Under the pieces are notes generated by a model. It worked only from the letters and a program-made list of their open reading frames with translations, had not been told where the DNA came from and did no database searches. The position numbers were made by a program, and so were the translations under genes. A stretch of DNA of 38,013 nt from Bacteroidaceae bacterium (GTDB taxonomy: Bacteria > Bacteroidota > Bacteroidia > Bacteroidales > Bacteroidaceae). Positions 25,901 to 33,208 of the stretch are shown here, piece after piece (the stretch's first letter is position 1; every line of letters begins with the position of its first letter). The stretch covers positions 1 to 38,013 of the forward strand of contig JAGBBX010000035.1 in the NCBI GenBank assembly GCA_017938245.1, in the 5' to 3' direction.

Positions 25901-26796
25901 GCGAGAATGCTGTTCCATTCGACCTTATCATAGACCTCAACTGCAAGGCAACATTGGACAAACTCCACTATCTTGGACGCGAGGATGGCGGTAACGGTAC
26001 AATCCTTGAGGCTACAATAAGCTACAGCACCAATAAGCGCAACTGGAGCGAGCCCGTTGCCATAAGTTGGGAGCGTACACCCGAAACTAAAATCTTTACA
26101 TTCGACAACAAGCCTGTTGCACGCTACATCAAGATTAGCGTAAGCAAAGCTATCGGCAACTTCGGTTCGGGACGCGAGATGTATATCTTCAAAGTACCCA
26201 ACACCGAGACCTATATCCCCGGTGATATCAACAAGGACAAGAAGGTAGATGAGAACGACCTCACATCGTACCTGAACTACACAGGATTGCGCAAGAGCGA
26301 CTCCGATTTCGACTACATCAGCATAGGTGACATTAACGAAAACGGCCTCATCGACGCCTACGACATTTCGGTTGTGGCAACAAAGTTAGAAGATGGAGTA
26401 AATGCGCACCGTGCAGCCGTAGCAGGAGCCCTCTCAATCAGCAGCGACAAGAAGAGCTACAAAGCCGGCGACAATGTTGTTGTAACCATTAAGGGAACAG
26501 GACTTGCACACGTAAATGCACTGAGCCTTGCACTCCCCTACAGCACCGACGAGTATGAGTTTGTAAGTATCGAACCCATCACTGTTGGCACACTGCAGAA
26601 TTTCAGCAAGAACCGTCTGCACGGCAATGGCGAGACTGTAATTTATCCCACATTTGTCAACACAGGTGAGAAAGCCGTACTCGAAGGCGACATCGAGATT
26701 GCCAAGATAACATTCAAGGCAAAGAAGAACATCAAGTTCAAGCTCGAGGCCAAAGACGCTGTCTTAGTAGACAAGGCTTTGAATACAGTAGAGTAA
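22957..26796 (+). CDS. Secreted multidomain GH31 glycosidase with CBM32-, dockerin- and cohesin-like modules
   Basis: A 1279-aa protein from the ATG at 22957; the upstream extension of the frame to 22903 would precede the signal peptide. Order (residues from this start): signal peptide to ~28; GH31 N-terminal beta domain to ~270; the (beta/alpha)8 barrel with likely nucleophile Asp 422 in VLKTDVAWVG and likely acid/base Asp 474 in WSGDQTGGDW; GH31 C-terminal sheets to ~800; FN3 ~865-938; F5/8 type C (CBM32-like) ~945-1080; a dockerin-like pair of Ca-binding loops, GDINKDKKVDENDL (~1089) and GDINENGLIDAYDI (~1124); and a cohesin-like beta-sandwich from ~1160 to the end. The barrel details (GYGAGYGQTE, EIGLWTESNLHP) recall the GH31_18 alpha-N-acetylgalactosaminidases, but other alpha-glycosidase activities are possible. 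Single gene with its own terminator. Confidence 0.85.
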   Translation: MRINYLTKVSAIMLTASMLIMGHLSAQATIDDERVSSVVSVNKINPTTVEVKLKEGKRMTIDFYGENIFRLFRDDNGGILRDPKPYDGYPEAQILVDNPRKSVTSLNIEQTDKDYTIKTNKIEVSVCKISGQIKVKNLATGKVVIEETAPVFFKKDKATITLKGNSQEYFFGGGVQNGRFSHAGKIIAIENQNSWTDGGVASPAPFFWSTQGYGFMWHTFMKGSYDFGATESNKITLTHDSDYIDVFFMVNSDGIALLNDFYQLTGNPVLIPKFGFYEGHLNAYNRDYWKESTDGSGVLFEDGKRYRESQKHNGGTQETLNGEKNNYQFSARAVVDRYEAHDMPLGWILPNDGYGAGYGQTETLEGNIQNLKEFGDYARERGVEIGLWTESNLHPRKGVPALLQRDLVGEVRDAGVRVLKTDVAWVGAGYSFGLNGVTDAAGIMTYYGNNARPFIISLDGWAGTQRFATIWSGDQTGGDWEYIRFHIPTYIGSGLSGQPNITSDMDGIFGGRHLQVNIRDYQWKTYTPMELNMDGWGANEKYPHALGEPATSINRMYLKMKSELMPYAYSIAREAVDGKPMIRAMFLEESNPYTLGAATRYQYMYGPYLLVAPIYQETAMDKEGNDIRNGIYLPNGVWFDWFSGEKYEGGRILNNYAAPLWKLPVFVKAGAIIPMNEPHNQPSQVDATMRIYELYPAGNSSFTEYDDDGKTELYRCGEFTTTLINSSCDEKGNVTVTINPTEGTFEGFVKEKATTFRVNVSEQPKKVSVKIGKKSIKLIQVENIEDFNNGTNVYFYDAAPQLNRFATPGSDFAKVNITKNPVLMVKVEKSDITAAATTLSIKGYKFETTNSLLTQEGTLAAPTATVTDENCQAYTITPSWEKVANADYYEIMFEGRLYTTIKECKLLFEDLVPETEYAFQVRAVNKSGVSDWTYIKSTTKSNPLEFALTGVSAQTTCPNQGGQGPNRLFDFEEGNIWHTAYGENAVPFDLIIDLNCKATLDKLHYLGREDGGNGTILEATISYSTNKRNWSEPVAISWERTPETKIFTFDNKPVARYIKISVSKAIGNFGSGREMYIFKVPNTETYIPGDINKDKKVDENDLTSYLNYTGLRKSDSDFDYISIGDINENGLIDAYDISVVATKLEDGVNAHRAAVAGALSISSDKKSYKAGDNVVVTIKGTGLAHVNALSLALPYSTDEYEFVSIEPITVGTLQNFSKNRLHGNGETVIYPTFVNTGEKAVLEGDIEIAKITFKAKKNIKFKLEAKDAVLVDKALNTVE

Positions 26797-26835
26797 TTCT
26801 ATCACAACAAAAGAGTTTCTGATAACTATTTATAA

Positions 26836-26880
26836 TCTTTACCCGATAGTGCACCCCACACTATCGGGTAAAGATTTTTT
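26836..26880 (+). terminator. Strong intrinsic terminator of the GH31 gene
   Basis: A perfect 16-bp stem (tctttacccgatagtg / cactatcgggtaaaga) has a 7-nt loop and is followed by six T. Confidence 0.95.
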
Positions 26881-26961
26881 ATAAAAAATCGGGCAAATTC
26901 GCACAAATTACATTACTTCTTGCTATCTTCGCAAGAATTTAGAAGAGTAGCACCAAACAGT

Positions 26962-27720
26962 ATGATTTTCAGATATAACAACCATAATATATTCATCGAC
27001 AAACAGGGCGAAGGAGAGCCTGTGCTGCTGTTGCACGGTTGGGGCTGCACACACGAGATTTTCAAGGCATTGCAGTTGCAGTTGGCACAAAAATACACAG
27101 TCTACAATTTCGATTTTCCCGGCTTTGGCGCCTCGGACGAGCCATCTGAGGTATGGGGTACCGAGGAGTACACCCGTATGGTAGAAACTTTTGTCAGGGA
27201 ACATAATATTGAGCGTCCCGCCCTTGTAGGACACTCGTTTGGCGGACGAATAAGCATAATATTCGCCTCGCGTAACGAGGCGAGCCGTGTAGTCCTTGTC
27301 GATGCGGCAGGCATAAAACCCAAGCGTCCACTGAAATATTACTACAAAGTATATACCTTCAAACTGCTAAAGTGGCTGTGCAACACATTCCTACCAAAGA
27401 AAAAGGCACAGGAGATAATAGAAAAGCGCCGCAAGGGCGCAGGGTCGAGCGACTACAATAACGCATCGCCCAAGATGCGCGCAATACTCTCGAAGGTTGT
27501 AAACGAAGACCTTACGCAGCTTCTACCTAAGATAAAGGCCCCCACTCTGCTCTTTTGGGGCAACCTCGACACCGCGACTCCACTGAGCGACGCAAAGACA
27601 ATGGAGCGTCTAATCCCCGATGCAGGACTTGTGATTGCACACGGAACAGGGCACTTCTCGTTCCTTGAGAATGCGGGACTTTTTACAACAGTAATGAAGA
27701 ACTTTTTTAAGATTAACTAA
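26962..27720 (+). CDS. Alpha/beta hydrolase, first gene of the Mur-ligase/Ddl unit
   Basis: A 252-aa cytoplasmic protein from the ATG at 26962; the frame opens at 26920, but MIFRYNNHNIFIDKQG is the natural start of the fold. It has the oxyanion-loop motif LLLHGWG (22-28), the nucleophile elbow GHSFGG with Ser 92, an acid in FWGNLDTATP and the His in GTGHFSF: a complete triad. A basic insert (KPKRPLKYYYKVYTFK and KKKAQEIIEKRRKG) forms the lid and might sit on a membrane. The substrate is unknown. The stop is 2 nt before the next start, so the two genes are almost certainly co-translated. Confidence 0.85.
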   Translation: MIFRYNNHNIFIDKQGEGEPVLLLHGWGCTHEIFKALQLQLAQKYTVYNFDFPGFGASDEPSEVWGTEEYTRMVETFVREHNIERPALVGHSFGGRISIIFASRNEASRVVLVDAAGIKPKRPLKYYYKVYTFKLLKWLCNTFLPKKKAQEIIEKRRKGAGSSDYNNASPKMRAILSKVVNEDLTQLLPKIKAPTLLFWGNLDTATPLSDAKTMERLIPDAGLVIAHGTGHFSFLENAGLFTTVMKNFFKIN

Positions 27721-27722
27721 CT

Positions 27723-29270
27723 ATGGAGAAATTCAATGTCATATATGCGGTAATTGCAACGGTAATGTATCTTATCGTTGCAAAGTACGACATTCATATG
27801 TTCCAGCTTAATTCCTACCGCTATAGCCGTTATTTTCGTTGGTTGGCACCGGAGAATATCGTCTCGACCAAGAGAGTATTCGCCCTGCTTGCCCTTGTAT
27901 CGGCCTTTTTACCCGATTACTACGGATTGGGATGCTTATCGGGTATAACAGTTGTTGCACTACTACACGCCCTAAGAGAGAAATTCAAGACACCGCTTGT
28001 GTTTACAATGCGTGTGAAGCGACTTTTTGCCACAAATATTGCGCTATTTGCTATTGCTGCAATTTTGTCGATGCTCTTTGCAGATACATACGCAAAAATA
28101 ATCATCGGCGTACTCCTTACACTATCTAACCTTATAATGTTACTTGCCAACCTTATAAACACACCCATAGAAAAGGGTATCAATCGTCACTATTACAACG
28201 ACGCAAAGAACATTATCCGCTCGCATAAAGGGCTTATTATAATAGGTATAACCGGCAGTTTCGGAAAAACGAGTACCAAGAACTATCTTGCCAGCCTATT
28301 GGCCGAAAAATACAACGTACTTGTAACACCCGGCAATTTCAACACACTGCTGGGAGTTGTACGCACAGTGCGCGAGCAGTTACGTCCATACCATCAGGTG
28401 TTTATTGTCGAGATGGGCGCCAAACAGCCAAATGACATAAAGGAGATTTGCGACCTTGTAGAACCCACCATTGGCATTGTGACTGCTGTTGGTGAGATGC
28501 ACCTTGAAACATTTAAATGCGTCGAGAACATACAAAAGACAAAGTTCGAGTTAATTGATTCGTTACCCGCAAACGGTCTTGGGGTAATAAATTACGACTC
28601 ACAACTGATACGAGAATACAAAGGCAGCACAAGCCCCTGCAAAATGCTTAAATATGGCGTTGAGCAAAAAGCCGATTTTTGTGCCACCGACATTATCTAT
28701 AACGGAAGCGGAGTATCATTCATACAGGGCGACGACCGTTTCGAAAGCCGCCTTTTGGGTCGAGGTAACCTATTGAACATCCTTGCCTCTATTGCCGTTG
28801 CCGATTATCTTGGCGTACCACGCAACAAGCAGAGAAATGCCATCGCCCGACTGCAACCCGTCGAGCACCGCCTATCGATGAGCCGCACAGGAGGCCTCAC
28901 CATCCTCGATGACGCCTATAATTCGAACCCTATGGGAGCACAGATGGCACTCGAGGTTCTGAAGAATTTCTGTGTTGGCGAGGGCAACAAACGCATAATC
29001 GTAACCCCGGGATTTGTCGAGATGGGCAGCCGTCAAGCCGATGCCAACAGAGAACTCGGACGCGCCATTGCCTCGTGTGCCGACTATGCGATAGTGGTCA
29101 ATGCCACCAACCGCGAAGCTATAAAGGGAGGCATCGACGAAGGAGGAATGTCGGCCGACAAAATATTCCTTGCCGATTCTCTTGCCGAGGCACGTGCCCA
29201 TATGGCTACAATTCTAAAAGTGGGCGACGTAGTATTATACGAGAACGACCTTCCCGACAATTTTAAATAA
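27723..29270 (+). CDS. Membrane-anchored MurF-related Mur ligase
   Basis: A 515-aa protein. The first ~150 residues hold hydrophobic segments (about 5-20, 52-85, 102-146) where normal MurF has its UDP-MurNAc-binding domain. The Mur ligase ATPase follows: P-loop GITGSFGKTSTK (175-186), VEMGA with Glu 230, VTAVGEMHLETF (253-264). The C-terminal Mur domain contains the MurF-type ILDDAYNSNPMG (394-405) and ends GDVVLYENDLPDNFK. Classical MurF adds D-Ala-D-Ala to UDP-MurNAc-tripeptide in the cytoplasm. This form keeps the catalytic core but not the UDP-substrate domain, so its acceptor may be membrane-bound or non-canonical (inference). It lies between the hydrolase and the Ddl homologue. Databases are likely to label it MurF; I would keep it separate. 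Confidence 0.8.
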   Translation: MEKFNVIYAVIATVMYLIVAKYDIHMFQLNSYRYSRYFRWLAPENIVSTKRVFALLALVSAFLPDYYGLGCLSGITVVALLHALREKFKTPLVFTMRVKRLFATNIALFAIAAILSMLFADTYAKIIIGVLLTLSNLIMLLANLINTPIEKGINRHYYNDAKNIIRSHKGLIIIGITGSFGKTSTKNYLASLLAEKYNVLVTPGNFNTLLGVVRTVREQLRPYHQVFIVEMGAKQPNDIKEICDLVEPTIGIVTAVGEMHLETFKCVENIQKTKFELIDSLPANGLGVINYDSQLIREYKGSTSPCKMLKYGVEQKADFCATDIIYNGSGVSFIQGDDRFESRLLGRGNLLNILASIAVADYLGVPRNKQRNAIARLQPVEHRLSMSRTGGLTILDDAYNSNPMGAQMALEVLKNFCVGEGNKRIIVTPGFVEMGSRQADANRELGRAIASCADYAIVVNATNREAIKGGIDEGGMSADKIFLADSLAEARAHMATILKVGDVVLYENDLPDNFK

Positions 29271-29302
29271 AAGATAACAAACAAAAAAACATATATAACA
29301 CA

Positions 29303-30505
29303 ATGAAGACAAATGTAGGCGTAGTTTTTGGCGGCCGCTCCGTCGAGAATGAAATTTCGGTAATTACAGCCAATCAAGCAATACAGGCAATGGATAGGGA
29401 GAAATATAACATTATCCCCATCTACATAACAAAAGAGGGTAAATGGTACAGCGGTGAGGCACTCTTCGACGTATCGAACTACCGCGACACAAAGAAACTG
29501 CTTGCAATGTGCGAGGAGGTATATATGAAGCCTATCTACGGCGACACCAACCTTTACCGCACAAAAAAAGGATTCTTCGGGAAAGAGGTAGTAGCCAAAC
29601 TCGACGTTATTCTGCCTGCACTGCACGGCACAAACTGCGAGGATGGCACCTTCCAGGGTGTGATGGAATTTTCGGGCATTCCCTATACAGGCTGCAACAC
29701 CCTTGCATCGGCAAACGGAATGGATAAAATCACAATGAAGATGATTCTTAAAGAGTGCGGTATTCCCGTTGTCGATTACTGCTGGTTCAGCGATAAGGAG
29801 TGGGACGACAAGAAAGACGACACAGTGGCACGCATCGAGAACAAGTTGGGTTATCCCGTTATTGTAAAGCCCGCTAACAGCGGTTCAAGCGTGGGCATAC
29901 GTGCGGCACACAACCGCGAAGAGCTTATAGATGCCATCGACTATGCAATCTCATTCACCAGCCGAGTGATTATTGAGAAATATGTGCAGAAGCTGAAAGA
30001 GGTAAACTGTGCTGTACTCGGAAACTACTACGAGTGTCAGCCATCGGTGTGCGAGGTTCCCGTGCGTAGTGGCGAGATTCTCTCGTATCAGGATAAATAT
30101 ATGAATGGTGGCGGCAAACAGTCCGAGGGTATGCGCTCTACTGTGCGCGAGATTCCCGCCAACCTCCCCGAGGAGAGCACGAAATTCATTCAAAAAGCAG
30201 CCTGCGACACCTTCCGCGCTCTCTCGTGCGACGGTGTTGCCCGCATCGACTTTATCATCGACGAGGCTACAGGTGAGATTTTTGTAAACGAGATAAACAC
30301 AATTCCCGGTTCACTCTCTTTCTACCTGTGGGAGTACAGTGGAATAAATTTCGGTACACTCATAGACAAACTCATCGACATTGCCCTGCGTCGCAAACAG
30401 GATGCCGGATTCAAGGCCGTCAACTACGGCGAGAATATCTTTGCGGCTGGAGGCAGTGGTGGTGCCAAGATGGGCGGCAAAATGGGTGGAAAATTCGGGA
30501 AATAA
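29303..30505 (+). CDS. D-alanine--D-alanine ligase family protein with Gly/Met/Lys tail
   Basis: A 400-aa protein (typical Ddl ~310-370). The ATP-grasp fold is complete: GRSVENEIS (Glu 16 near the first D-Ala), LPALHGTNCEDGTFQG (105-119), VKPANSGSSVGI (188-199), SYQDKYMNGG (the omega-loop with the Lys-Tyr typical of D-Ala-D-Ala rather than D-Ala-D-Lac ligases), and the metal site VNEINTIPGS (328-337). In place of the usual GEDG there is CEDG. The last ~20 residues (AAGGSGGAKMGGKMGGKFGK) are a low-complexity Gly/Met/Lys tail not usual for Ddl. It lies 32 nt after the Mur-ligase gene, and a terminator closes the unit. It would supply D-Ala-D-Ala or a D-Ala-D-X dipeptide to its neighbour. Confidence 0.85.
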   Translation: MKTNVGVVFGGRSVENEISVITANQAIQAMDREKYNIIPIYITKEGKWYSGEALFDVSNYRDTKKLLAMCEEVYMKPIYGDTNLYRTKKGFFGKEVVAKLDVILPALHGTNCEDGTFQGVMEFSGIPYTGCNTLASANGMDKITMKMILKECGIPVVDYCWFSDKEWDDKKDDTVARIENKLGYPVIVKPANSGSSVGIRAAHNREELIDAIDYAISFTSRVIIEKYVQKLKEVNCAVLGNYYECQPSVCEVPVRSGEILSYQDKYMNGGGKQSEGMRSTVREIPANLPEESTKFIQKAACDTFRALSCDGVARIDFIIDEATGEIFVNEINTIPGSLSFYLWEYSGINFGTLIDKLIDIALRRKQDAGFKAVNYGENIFAAGGSGGAKMGGKMGGKFGK

Positions 30506-30526: not shown

Positions 30527-30574
30527 ACGGTGCGCCTCTCGAATAAAGACGATTGGTGCACCGTAGTTTTTTTC
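30527..30574 (+). terminator. Intrinsic terminator after the Ddl homologue
   Basis: The stem acggtgcgcctctcg / cgattggtgcaccgt has a 7-bp perfect base, one G-U pair and a 2-nt internal loop, and is followed by AG and a run of seven T (30566-30573 region). It separates the ligase unit from the hydrolase-umuDC unit, whose first start is at 30581. Confidence 0.75.
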
Positions 30575-30580
30575 GACAAT

Positions 30581-31516
30581 ATGAGAACAATAGCAACCAT
30601 TATACTATTTCTATCAGTGATATTCGGTGCAACAGCACAAGAGTACATTCTATCGACCCCAACAGGCAAGATATATGGAGAATTGCTTATGCCCGAAGGC
30701 GACACCCCCTGTCCCATCGTACTTATTATAGCAGGCAGCGGCCCCACAAATATGGATGGAAACAGTTTAGGTACCGACTACAAGAGTAACTCACTGCGCT
30801 ACCTTGCCGAAGAGCTTGCAAAGAGAGGCATTGCCACCCTTCGCTACGACAAACGAGGTATTGGCAAAAGCAGAGAAGCCCAAGCGAGCGAAGAGAATCT
30901 GCGATTCGAGCATTATATCGACGATGCAGCAGCGTGGGCCGACACACTTTTTAAAGACGGTCGCTTCACAAAAGTAATAATTGCCGGACACAGCGAGGGG
31001 TCGCTCATTGGAATGGTAGCAGCCCAAAAGAGCAACAACATCAAAGCCTTTGTCTCTATTGCAGGCTGCGGCAGCCCCGCACATCAAATTATAGAGGAGC
31101 AGATGAGCAAACAACCCGAGCAGATACGTGATGAGGTTGCAAAAATAAACAAAGAACTGTGCGAAGGACGTACCGTCGAGAATGTCCCCTCCTATCTTGC
31201 ATCACTCTACCGCAAGAGCGTACAACCCTATCTAATATCGTGGTTCCGCTACGACCCGTCCAAAGAGATTGCAAAACTGAAGATTCCCGTACTGATACTG
31301 CAAGGCGACAAGGATATACAGGTAGGAGTAAAAGAGGCACAGAAACTATATATGGCACGTATCTTCTCGTCGTTCTATATTATAGAGAATATGAATCACG
31401 TACTCAAAGATTGCGACAGCGATAATACGCTTATGCAGTTAGAGACATATAAAAACCCCGACCTTCCCATAAAGAGCGAACTTGTTGAGCATATAACCCG
31501 TTTCATAAAACAATGA
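30581..31516 (+). CDS. Secreted alpha/beta hydrolase (esterase/peptidase-like)
   Basis: A 311-aa protein from the ATG at 30581. The frame is open from 30530, but that region forms the upstream terminator, and this start gives a signal peptide (RTIATIILFLSVIFGATAQ). The fold markers are LIIAGSGPTNMDGNS (oxyanion region), LRYDKRGIGKS, the nucleophile elbow GHSEGS with Ser 138, the Asp in LQGDKDIQV and the His in IENMNHVLKD. This is a common family of exported Bacteroidota hydrolases with unknown natural substrate. Its stop overlaps the umuD start by 4 bases (ATGA), so an exported hydrolase and a DNA-damage gene share a message. Confidence 0.85.
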   Translation: MRTIATIILFLSVIFGATAQEYILSTPTGKIYGELLMPEGDTPCPIVLIIAGSGPTNMDGNSLGTDYKSNSLRYLAEELAKRGIATLRYDKRGIGKSREAQASEENLRFEHYIDDAAAWADTLFKDGRFTKVIIAGHSEGSLIGMVAAQKSNNIKAFVSIAGCGSPAHQIIEEQMSKQPEQIRDEVAKINKELCEGRTVENVPSYLASLYRKSVQPYLISWFRYDPSKEIAKLKIPVLILQGDKDIQVGVKEAQKLYMARIFSSFYIIENMNHVLKDCDSDNTLMQLETYKNPDLPIKSELVEHITRFIKQ

Positions 31517-31941
31517 GTGACAATCTTAACATATACAGCCCCGATGCCGATAACGGCATAGAAATTCCCTTATCGGACGAGCGCGTGGCAGCAGGCTTTC
31601 CCTCCCCTGCCGATGACTATGCCTCGCTTAAGCTCGACCTTAACAGAGAGCTAATTAAAAACCCTGCATCCACATTCTATGCACGGGTGAGCGGACTCTC
31701 AATGGTAGACGAAGGAATAAACGAGGGCGACCTGCTTGTTATCGACAAAAGTCTTGAACCACGCGACGGCAGCCTTGCCGTCTGCTACATCGATGGAGAG
31801 TTCACCCTTAAACGGTTCGAGCGGCACAGCGAATATGGGCTTCTTATCCCTGCGAACAAGGAATTTCGTCCCATCAAGGTAACAGCCGAGAACAACTTTA
31901 TCATCTGGGGCATAGTCACCTATATCATTAAGAAAGTATAG
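31513..31941 (+). CDS. umuD: UmuD-like translesion-polymerase accessory protein (S24 peptidase)
   Basis: A 142-aa protein. The self-cleavage site is Ala 27-Gly 28 ([12 protein letters not shown]), the nucleophile is Ser 63 in [10 protein letters not shown] and the general base is Lys 100 in GEFTLKRFE. All three sit 3 residues later than in E. coli UmuD (24/25, 60, 97). After RecA-stimulated self-cleavage, UmuD' joins UmuC to form polymerase V. The start overlaps the preceding hydrolase stop, and umuC follows 7 nt downstream. No LexA-type box is apparent upstream of either, so how damage induces the pair is open. Confidence 0.93.
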
Positions 31942-31948
31942 TATAGCA

Positions 31949-33208
31949 ATGCTTGGTCTTTGCGACTGCAACAACTTTTTTGTCTCGTGCGAGAGAGTGT
32001 TCAACCCCTCACTCGAAGGGCGTCCCGTCGTTGTACTCAGCAACAACGACGGATGCGTCGTCTCGCGTAGCAACGAAGCAAAAGCATTGGGAATAAAAAT
32101 GGGGCAACCACTCTATCAGATACGCGACCTTGTAAAGAGAGAGAATGTGGCGGTACACTCGGCCAACTACCATCTCTATGGTGATATGTCGCATCGCGTG
32201 ATGACAATGCTGAAAGAGAATGTCGAGTACATCGAGATTTACTCTATCGACGAAGCCTTTCTATGGTTCGGTGGAATACCCTGCGAACAACTGAAGGAGT
32301 TTGGCGAGAAACTCGCCCGCACCATTCGCAAAGGGACAGGCATACCTGTGAGCATCGGCATCTCACACACAAAGACCCTTGCCAAGATAGCAAGCAAACT
32401 ATGCAAAAAATACCCCAAACTGAACAGTTGCTGTCTTATGCAGCGCGACGAGGAGATTGCAAAAGTTCTATCGACCTACCCTATAAGCGATATCTGGGGC
32501 ATCGGACGCCGTCACAGCAAGATGTTGGAGGGGTGTTATATACGCACAGCGGCACAGTTCTATGCACTGAGCGAGGAGTGGATACGCAACCGAATGAATA
32601 TCAATGGTGTACGCACGTGGCGCGAACTACACGGAACACCCTGCATAGAGTTCAACCATCAGATAGCCGACAAGCAGACAATAACCGTCTCGCGCTCATT
32701 TGCCAAAGAGCTATATGAGTTTGATGATATTCACGAGACAATATCCACATTCGCATCACTGGCCGCCGAAAAACTAAGACAGCAACACTCGCTGACACGT
32801 ATGCTGCAAGTGTTCATCCTCACCAACCGCCACCGCGACGACCGGCCACAGCACTACGAGGGAGCAGCGGTGCATTTTCCCGTACCCACCGACAGCTCAT
32901 TAGAAATCGTTAAGGCAGCAACCACACTGCTAAGAAAAATATACCGTAAAGGCTACGGTTACAAAAAGACAGGTGTCACGCTTGGAGACATATCATCGGC
33001 CACAATTATTCAAGGCGAATTATTTGACACTATAGACCGGCCCAAGCACCGAATGTTAATGGAGGCAATAGACAAAATAAATGCCACACAGGGTCACGAG
33101 GCAGTGCGATTAGTATCGCAAGGCAGCATATCGGACCACAGCAACCGACAGTATCTATCGCCGCAATATACCACAAAGTGGGAGGATATTCCACTCGTAA
33201 AGGTGTAA
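31949..33208 (+). CDS. umuC: UmuC, Y-family DNA polymerase V catalytic subunit
   Basis: A 419-aa protein (E. coli UmuC 422). It has the N-terminal active-site motif [15 protein letters not shown] (Asp 6), the second metal site [10 protein letters not shown] (Asp and Glu near residue 100), a helix-hairpin-helix thumb region ([15 protein letters not shown]) and a little-finger domain with the ending seen in UmuC ([14 protein letters not shown]). It performs error-prone synthesis across lesions together with UmuD'. It is the last gene of the hydrolase-umuD-umuC unit. No hairpin terminator is evident in the 160 bp before the next gene. Confidence 0.95.

Follow-up and report, generated by a model that had tools for sequence, protein, structure and literature searches.

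MurF is generally taken to be a soluble, essential enzyme of cell-wall synthesis and a drug target. Here we describe a locus whose MurF-type ligase appears to be embedded in the membrane. It occupies positions 26,962–30,505 of contig JAGBBX010000035.1 (assembly GCA_017938245.1), a stretch of 38,013 nucleotides from a Bacteroidaceae bacterium to which we refer as the window. The window is one contig (G000:C24) of a 2.70-Mb genome in 63 contigs, 86% complete and 6.9% contaminated, whose nearest named relatives in a contig scan were Bacteroidales metagenome-assembled genomes. Three genes follow one another on the forward strand, encoding an alpha/beta hydrolase, a Mur ligase with membrane helices in place of the UDP-binding domain, and a D-alanine–D-alanine ligase (Ddl). 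We use mMurF as a label for Mur ligases of this kind and P0002 for the window copy. Comparison across genomes suggests that mMurF and the adjacent Ddl are probably the housekeeping D-Ala-D-Ala module rather than a spare one.

Several described systems resemble parts of this locus. Soluble MurF proteins (TIGR01143) share with mMurF the middle and C-terminal domains, the P-loop and the residues E158, H188, R316, D331, N334, N336 and E363 (E. coli numbering); unlike them, mMurF has helices and no UDP-binding domain, carries the motif ENDLPD where they have K432 and S434, and forms its own clade. MurT, the ligase of the MurT/GatD pair, is likewise a Mur ligase without an N-terminal UDP-binding domain. 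According to the available portion of its description, its substrate is membrane-bound, namely lipid II, and its authors consider the domain needless for such a substrate and likely to clash with the membrane (PMC6113224). Unlike mMurF, and again as far as the available text goes, MurT pairs with GatD, amidates D-Glu and has only a short N-terminus. The sequence match between the two proteins is weak (E = 1.7e-8), and membership of mMurF in the MurT/GatD system was rejected, its score with the MurT model NF045635 being 26.1 bits against a cut-off of 800. A third relative, MurF-Alr (PRK11930), is encoded in the same genome as mMurF and also contains a MurF-type ligase; it differs in retaining the UDP domain, in being fused to an alanine racemase, and in having Asp at the position of N336 and no Glu at position 363.

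A looser parallel is offered by MglA, the alternative MurG of Kitasatospora, a distant homologue which, in the part of the report available, takes over a supposedly universal step in the making of peptidoglycan precursors (PMC8092295). Unlike mMurF, MglA concerns a different step, and by that same partial account it acts under certain conditions and not as a permanent substitute in various groups of genomes. A MurF-like archaeal protein of Methanomassiliicoccales was set aside as a different thing, being linked to methanogenesis in the accessible part of its description (PMC4153887). We found no description of a membrane MurF system in the open-access literature searched, which is no proof of its absence in print. 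A paper of 2025 devoted to the Mur family (PMC11915815) does not mention a membrane MurF in its available part, nor did we find Rhodothermus or Salinibacter mentioned in the accessible portion of a paper on vancomycin and thermophiles (PMC4814524). The open-access literature searched yielded no usable paper on the stem peptides of Butyrivibrio.

The main features of the locus are the following, those within mMurF and Ddl being given below the respective gene.

26962..27720, + strand: alpha/beta hydrolase (H), 252 aa from the ATG at 26962, or 266 aa if the TTG at 26920 is the start
27723..29270, + strand: mMurF, membrane-embedded MurF-type ligase, 515 aa (open reading frame, Pfam, motifs, tree)
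27723..28217, + strand: predicted membrane-helix region of mMurF, about residues 1–165, replacing the UDP-MurNAc-binding domain (hydropathy and model)
About residues 87–101 of mMurF, + strand: conserved basic loop K.K.PLVFT.R..RL, within the membrane-helix region
28248..28802, + strand: Mur ligase middle (ATPase) domain, with the P-loop GSFGKT at residues 178–183
28866..29237, + strand: Mur ligase C-terminal domain, with the MurF-type motif DDAYNSNP and, after it, the mMurF-specific ENDLPD at residues 507–512
29303..30505, + strand: Ddl, 400 aa, D-alanine–D-alanine ligase belonging to the PGS..FYLW subtype
30296..30331, + strand: Ddl motif NTIPGSLSFYLW, the shortened loop that travels with mMurF (alignments)
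30416..30502, + strand: Gly/Lys-rich C-terminal tail of Ddl (alignment)

The initial annotation of the window had recognized a hydrolase, a membrane-anchored Mur ligase and a Ddl homologue, separated by gaps of 2 and then 32 nucleotides. This anatomy is borne out by the open reading frames and by Pfam, which places Mur_ligase_M at residues 176–360 of P0002 (E = 1.7e-37) and Mur_ligase_C at residues 382–505, and which at an E-value of 0.001 finds no N-terminal Mur domain nor anything else before the middle domain. That membrane helices stand where the UDP-MurNAc-binding domain is expected, as had also been proposed, agrees with the TIGR01143 alignment, in which model positions 72–402 are aligned to P0002 and positions 1–71 are unmatched. 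A simple hydropathy scan predicts four membrane helices in residues 4–144 (two to five in relatives), and an AlphaFold2 model built from 13 sequences (mean pLDDT 82) has long helices in the N-terminal region. The ten best PDB matches of this model in Foldseek are all MurF, with 4qf5 and 1gg4 as the best. The window mMurF retains GSFGKT, E230, H260, R383, DDAYNSNP and E433. When 71 Mur ligases are aligned, the P-loop Lys (K111), E158, H188, R316, D331, N334, N336 and E363 are kept in all 23 mMurF rows; we take the roles of individual E. coli MurF and Ddl residues to be those generally assigned to them. Thus the annotated retention of the P-loop, the Glu and the MurF C-terminal motifs holds for the first two and for DDAYNSNP, whereas K432 and S434 have been replaced. 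The basic loop precedes the last helices and falls within the best-conserved part of the membrane region; its simple pattern was matched in 21 of the 23 mMurF rows (L235 and L289 were missed), and of the three shortest forms, with 473–484 aa, two have the loop.

Proteins of this type are widespread. For the genus Ddl genes and for the order, the phylum, Lachnospiraceae and Clostridia, the counts given here and below refer to the matches listed, which were sorted by E-value with the strong matches shown; the last two names are those of Butyrivibrio's family and class, applied to the groups searched around genome G623. Full-length mMurF was found in 25 of the 27 genomes of the window's genus. 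The remaining two also lack a match to the Ddl N-terminal domain, so that a missing contig is likely there. Within the order, mMurF occurs in 19 of 295 genomes, the window's included, from nine families and with a clear gap in scores (2.6e-113 to 2.3e-44); a sample of the phylum gave 61 of 296 genomes (E ≤ 2.4e-121, the next match being at 3.4e-55), the 60 other than the window's all lying outside its class. Clostridia contributed 16 of 123 genomes, and Butyrivibrio sp. INlla18 appeared among the best 80 of 568 relatives in the contig scan. In a tree of the 71 ligase domains, all 23 mMurF rows form one clade (support 100/100), with the MurF group on one side of it and the MurC/D/E group on the other; a root on the MurC/D/E side would make this clade the sister of MurF.

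An indication of function comes from the distribution of mMurF relative to that of soluble MurF, since the two were not found together in any genome examined. Among the matches listed for 60 Lachnospiraceae genomes, 50 carry a full-length soluble MurF above the cut-off, 10 an mMurF-type protein, whose match begins at TIGR01143 position 61–73, and none carries both. The corresponding figures for the 123 Clostridia genomes are 105, 16 and none, with two genomes having neither; under random placement such exclusion would have p = 3e-18, a value that serves as a guide only because the genomes are related. In the phylum, none of 36 mMurF genomes had a soluble full-length MurF among its listed matches; five of these genomes (G520, G359, G508, G332 and G402) are listed with one contig each. 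Thirteen of the 36, every one a member of the order, match over the full length within a long frame (825–1019 aa) that reads as MurF-Alr in every case, while the other 23 (4 of the order and 19 outside the class) have neither soluble MurF nor MurF-Alr. In Butyrivibrio INlla18, no MurF-type ligase other than mMurF was found. Six further mMurF genomes show no MurF of soluble size, one having a MurF-Alr of 830 aa and another a partial match in a frame of 738 aa. Furthermore, no murF lies between murE and mraY in any of 18 stretches holding both genes (14 from phylum genomes, 4 from Clostridia). Conversely, where order genomes lack mMurF, 7 of 7 loci, chosen among the best mMurF matches and not at random, encode a soluble MurF of 427–474 aa; one of them is in G168, of the window's own family, and its protein scores 398.6 bits with TIGR01143.

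Two kinds of candidate were tried in this context and rejected. Weaker full-length TIGR01143 matches, of about 110–152 bits, might have been hidden MurF proteins; they proved to be MurE in all of the 20 + 3 stretches fetched, G672, G677 and G682 being among the genomes left out. MurF paralogues whose match begins at model position 26–44 (G719, G766) might have been mMurF, but the two copies fetched have no membrane helix by hydropathy. As a separate observation, G766 has three extra MurF-like frames of 772–990 aa beside its normal MurF (C19 and C34; L291), one of which was included in the tree, where it sits on a long branch within the soluble MurF group.

The order hydrolase–mMurF–Ddl recurs in both Bacteroidales and Clostridia, so that the conservation which had been suggested as a check of the annotation is present. 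It was seen at 14 of 18 order loci (one with Ddl cut by the contig end), the others being one locus with the hydrolase only and three with mMurF alone. The best 80 of 568 contig loci, which come partly from the same genomes as the order set and are not independent of it, comprise 61 with the full order, 18 with the hydrolase only and one with Ddl on the other strand. Eight of nine Lachnospiraceae loci have the triad and the ninth has mMurF alone; at all 15 Clostridia loci, from which the Butyrivibrio locus is excluded, the hydrolase precedes and Ddl follows mMurF, and one triad (L287) is 97–99% identical to that of Butyrivibrio. Given this recurrence and the full-length relatives in 25 of 27 genus genomes, the triad is not a chance arrangement. 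Outside the class, an upstream hydrolase was found at 11 of 17 loci (once with about 1.1 kb between), none at the other 6 at an E-value of 1e-8, and an adjacent Ddl at 0 of 17; judged by these locus counts, mMurF is accompanied more often by the hydrolase than by Ddl. In two Clostridia loci from genomes of 0.8–0.9 Mb (L286 and L290), the order extends to H–mMurF–Ddl–MurE–MraY–MurD. In L289, from a genome of the same size range, an opposite-strand gene is inserted, murE and mraY follow, and the stretch ends within the frame that comes next. A protein of 1007–1114 aa, with a hydrophobic N-terminus similar in all three cases, is encoded upstream of the triad in L286, L289 and L290.

The Ddl of the window has both Ddl domains according to Pfam and NCBIfam, as well as Glu15 and the Lys–Tyr pair, and matches the subfamily model NF002528 (PRK01966.1-4) over its whole length with 334.1 bits (cut-off 262). 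A standard ddl had been expected elsewhere on the chromosome; the window genome, within its 86% completeness, revealed no second one, and the window copy is the sole Ddl found there. Similarly, one strong Ddl is present in 11 of 12 genus relatives (G002, which is 7% contaminated, has two). Of 18 mMurF genomes of the order, 17 show a single Ddl and the 18th has one more fragment; among 30 further mMurF genomes, 29 show a single Ddl. The exception, G637, has a second Ddl with the motif NTIPGLTAVSRYP, and two MurE genes as well (L256, L329, L330). When aligned with the S. aureus enzyme, the window Ddl has a PGS..FYLW loop, NTIPGSLSFYLW, that is four residues shorter. PGS..FYL is found in 21 of 22 Ddl genes of mMurF genomes, linked or not, the exception being the second Ddl of G637; the genus has PGS in 12 of 12 Ddl genes, and other genera of the order have PGM or PGL in 17 of 17, of which 11 were from genomes searched for mMurF, all without it, and 6 from outside that search. 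Even outside the class, where Ddl is not adjacent to mMurF, the subtype still goes with it. This association, which does not depend on linkage, suggests that Ddl and mMurF share a substrate or are in contact with each other. The Gly/Lys-rich tail at 30416–30502 (GGAKMGGKMGGKFGK), which sets the window Ddl apart within the PRK01966.1-4 subfamily, could serve as a membrane or protein contact; the mean Gly plus Lys content of the aligned tails is 0.33, with few Gly in the reduced Clostridia. A Van-type D-Ala-D-Lac or D-Ala-D-Ser ligase was considered and rejected, as every Van model among the 25 of 55 families listed scored below its own cut-off and below the Ddl subfamily.

The hydrolase appears, from its residues and fold, to be an active serine hydrolase. 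Its catalytic Ser106, Asp217 and His245 (numbered from 26920) are the same in all 129 rows aligned, its model has an alpha/beta fold with a pLDDT of 93.6, and a genome as small as about 0.8 Mb still retains the gene. The nearest structures are general esterases and lipases, with a membrane phospholipase A at the top, and do not fix its substrate. The initial annotation proposed an editing or releasing function; cleaning up or editing a membrane-proximal intermediate is the role we would guess first, with low confidence.

A simple scheme can be proposed. Ddl would produce the D-Ala-D-Ala dipeptide, and mMurF, anchored by its several predicted helices, would join it to the tripeptide stem with ATP, which is the task of MurF. 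The enzyme would face the cytoplasm, as its need for ATP suggests and as the fit of its basic loops to the positive-inside rule would allow. The likeliest acceptor is lipid-linked MurNAc-tripeptide (lipid I or lipid II), formed after MraY; this is suggested by the loss of the UDP-binding domain together with the conserved basic loop adjoining the helices, and finds an analogy in MurT, and we give it about an even chance. MraY accepts tripeptide precursors in vitro. In the initial annotation, a membrane-proximal acceptor had been proposed, with a lipid-linked muropeptide as the first candidate, and dipeptide ligation had been assigned to the ligase; the former fits the present data and is the acceptor we would prefer, while the latter gains support from the exclusion of soluble MurF. 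The more extensive proposal, in which MraY transfers the tripeptide precursor from UDP-MurNAc-tripeptide to the lipid carrier before mMurF adds the dipeptide of its dedicated Ddl, the hydrolase acts on the same intermediate and soluble MurF has been lost in three groups, is a serious possibility that falls slightly short of an even chance.

The initial annotation saw here a paralogous system that joins the dipeptide to some other acceptor, such as a recycled fragment or an envelope polymer, while housekeeping murF and ddl genes reside elsewhere. A second murF does exist in the window genome, and the idea that there is no other murF had to be discarded as wrong, the gene in question being that for a MurF-Alr of 826 aa on contig G000:C53 (L100, 1795–4275). 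It keeps the UDP domain, no membrane helix was found in this copy, and a frame of 827–843 aa matching P0002 is present in all 27 genus genomes, only three of which were read as MurF-Alr. Such a system would gain from the presence of the fusion, but it is very improbable, given that the window genome yielded no second Ddl and that nearly all mMurF genomes examined have a single one, that no other MurF-type ligase was found in Butyrivibrio or in 23 of the 36 genomes, and that the triad adjoins murE–mraY–murD. Most likely, then, the system is not paralogous, and the alternative envisaged in the annotation, a housekeeping enzyme with a membrane anchor, largely agrees with what was found, save for the presence of MurF-Alr in the window genome and in 12 of the 16 other order mMurF genomes. 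This co-occurrence, in 13 of 17 order genomes, raises the possibility, to be held tentatively, that where both ligases are present they divide the work by growth phase, place or acceptor, mMurF being one of two. In an alignment of 13 MurF-Alr sequences, from 12 of the 13 order genomes with the fusion and from G628, the P-loop Lys, E158 and H188 are retained in all and K432 in 12, which would suit such a division. On the other hand, N336 is replaced by Asp and E363 by Gln, His, Ala or Gly in 13 of 13, and the ligase half may therefore be altered, weak or inactive. It is consequently less certain for the window than for Butyrivibrio that mMurF is the sole MurF. These retained residues and the spread of MurF-Alr count against the housekeeping assignment, as do the score of the window MurF-Alr with PRK11930 (1190 bits, cut-off 804), the score of P0002 below the TIGR01143 cut-off (225.6 against 288.6 bits), and the replacement of K432 by Glu and of S434 by Asp in 23 of 23 mMurF rows. 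In the same direction, the two Clostridia genomes with neither form indicate that an absence may also reflect a gap, and eight Clostridia stretches, from seven genomes, show murE without mraY, so that the positional test for murF is impossible there. We nevertheless regard the housekeeping role as most likely on account of the exclusion between mMurF and soluble MurF, the Ddl subtype that goes with mMurF and the proximity of murE–mraY–murD in reduced genomes.

If mMurF is indeed the housekeeping ligase, it may still perform ordinary MurF chemistry on UDP-MurNAc-tripeptide, with helices that serve only to keep it close to MraY and with the sequence of steps unaltered. This would be in line with its replacement of soluble MurF and with a core that is closest to MurF in fold, and it would require no change in what MraY accepts. 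We regard it as a possibility of some substance, though not the favoured one, because TIGR01143 detects no part of the UDP domain in mMurF, matches beginning at model position 59–74 with helices there in the scanned sequences, and because MurT, with the same domain loss, acts on lipid II in the available part of its description (PMC6113224). Another variant concerns the dipeptide itself: the Ddl subtype with the shortened loop might make D-Ala-D-X, with X not Ala, and mMurF would be its matching ligase. The company that this subtype keeps with mMurF even when unlinked and the four missing loop residues could be explained in this way; the Lys–Tyr pair, which we take to be typical of D-Ala-adding Ddl enzymes, is however kept in 101 of 102 Ddl rows (the other has a gap), and the NCBIfam subfamily is named D-alanine–D-alanine ligase. 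Stems of this kind are unlikely, and we retain D-Ala-D-Ala added to a lipid-linked tripeptide as the preferred reading.

Around the triad, one further element was recorded between the preceding gene, which ends at 26796, and the hydrolase gene.

26834..26876, + strand: terminator-like 18-bp stem-loop with a T-rich tail (pattern match only)

Six terminator-like sites were found in the region against 5.6 expected, this stem being the longest, and promoter and terminator scans gave site numbers no better than those in shuffled sequence. Downstream of Ddl lie an open reading frame for a secreted-looking EstD-like hydrolase (30530–31516), a UmuD-like one overlapping it by 4 nucleotides (31513–31941) and a UmuC-like gene (31949–33208); counterparts of all three are also found 3′ of the triad in L120 and L121.

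Taken as a whole, mMurF represents a new form of MurF, and in the boldest reading the steps of the pathway are possibly reordered. A membrane-embedded MurF lacking the UDP site appears to replace the soluble form among Clostridia, Butyrivibrio included, and within the window's own phylum, both in some Bacteroidales and in many genomes that do not belong to the window's class. If this is true, inhibitors directed against the UDP site of MurF should fail in organisms that rely on mMurF, and the pathway's final cytoplasmic step might be able to shift to the lipid stage. The locus also points an uncharacterised serine hydrolase towards cell-wall synthesis.

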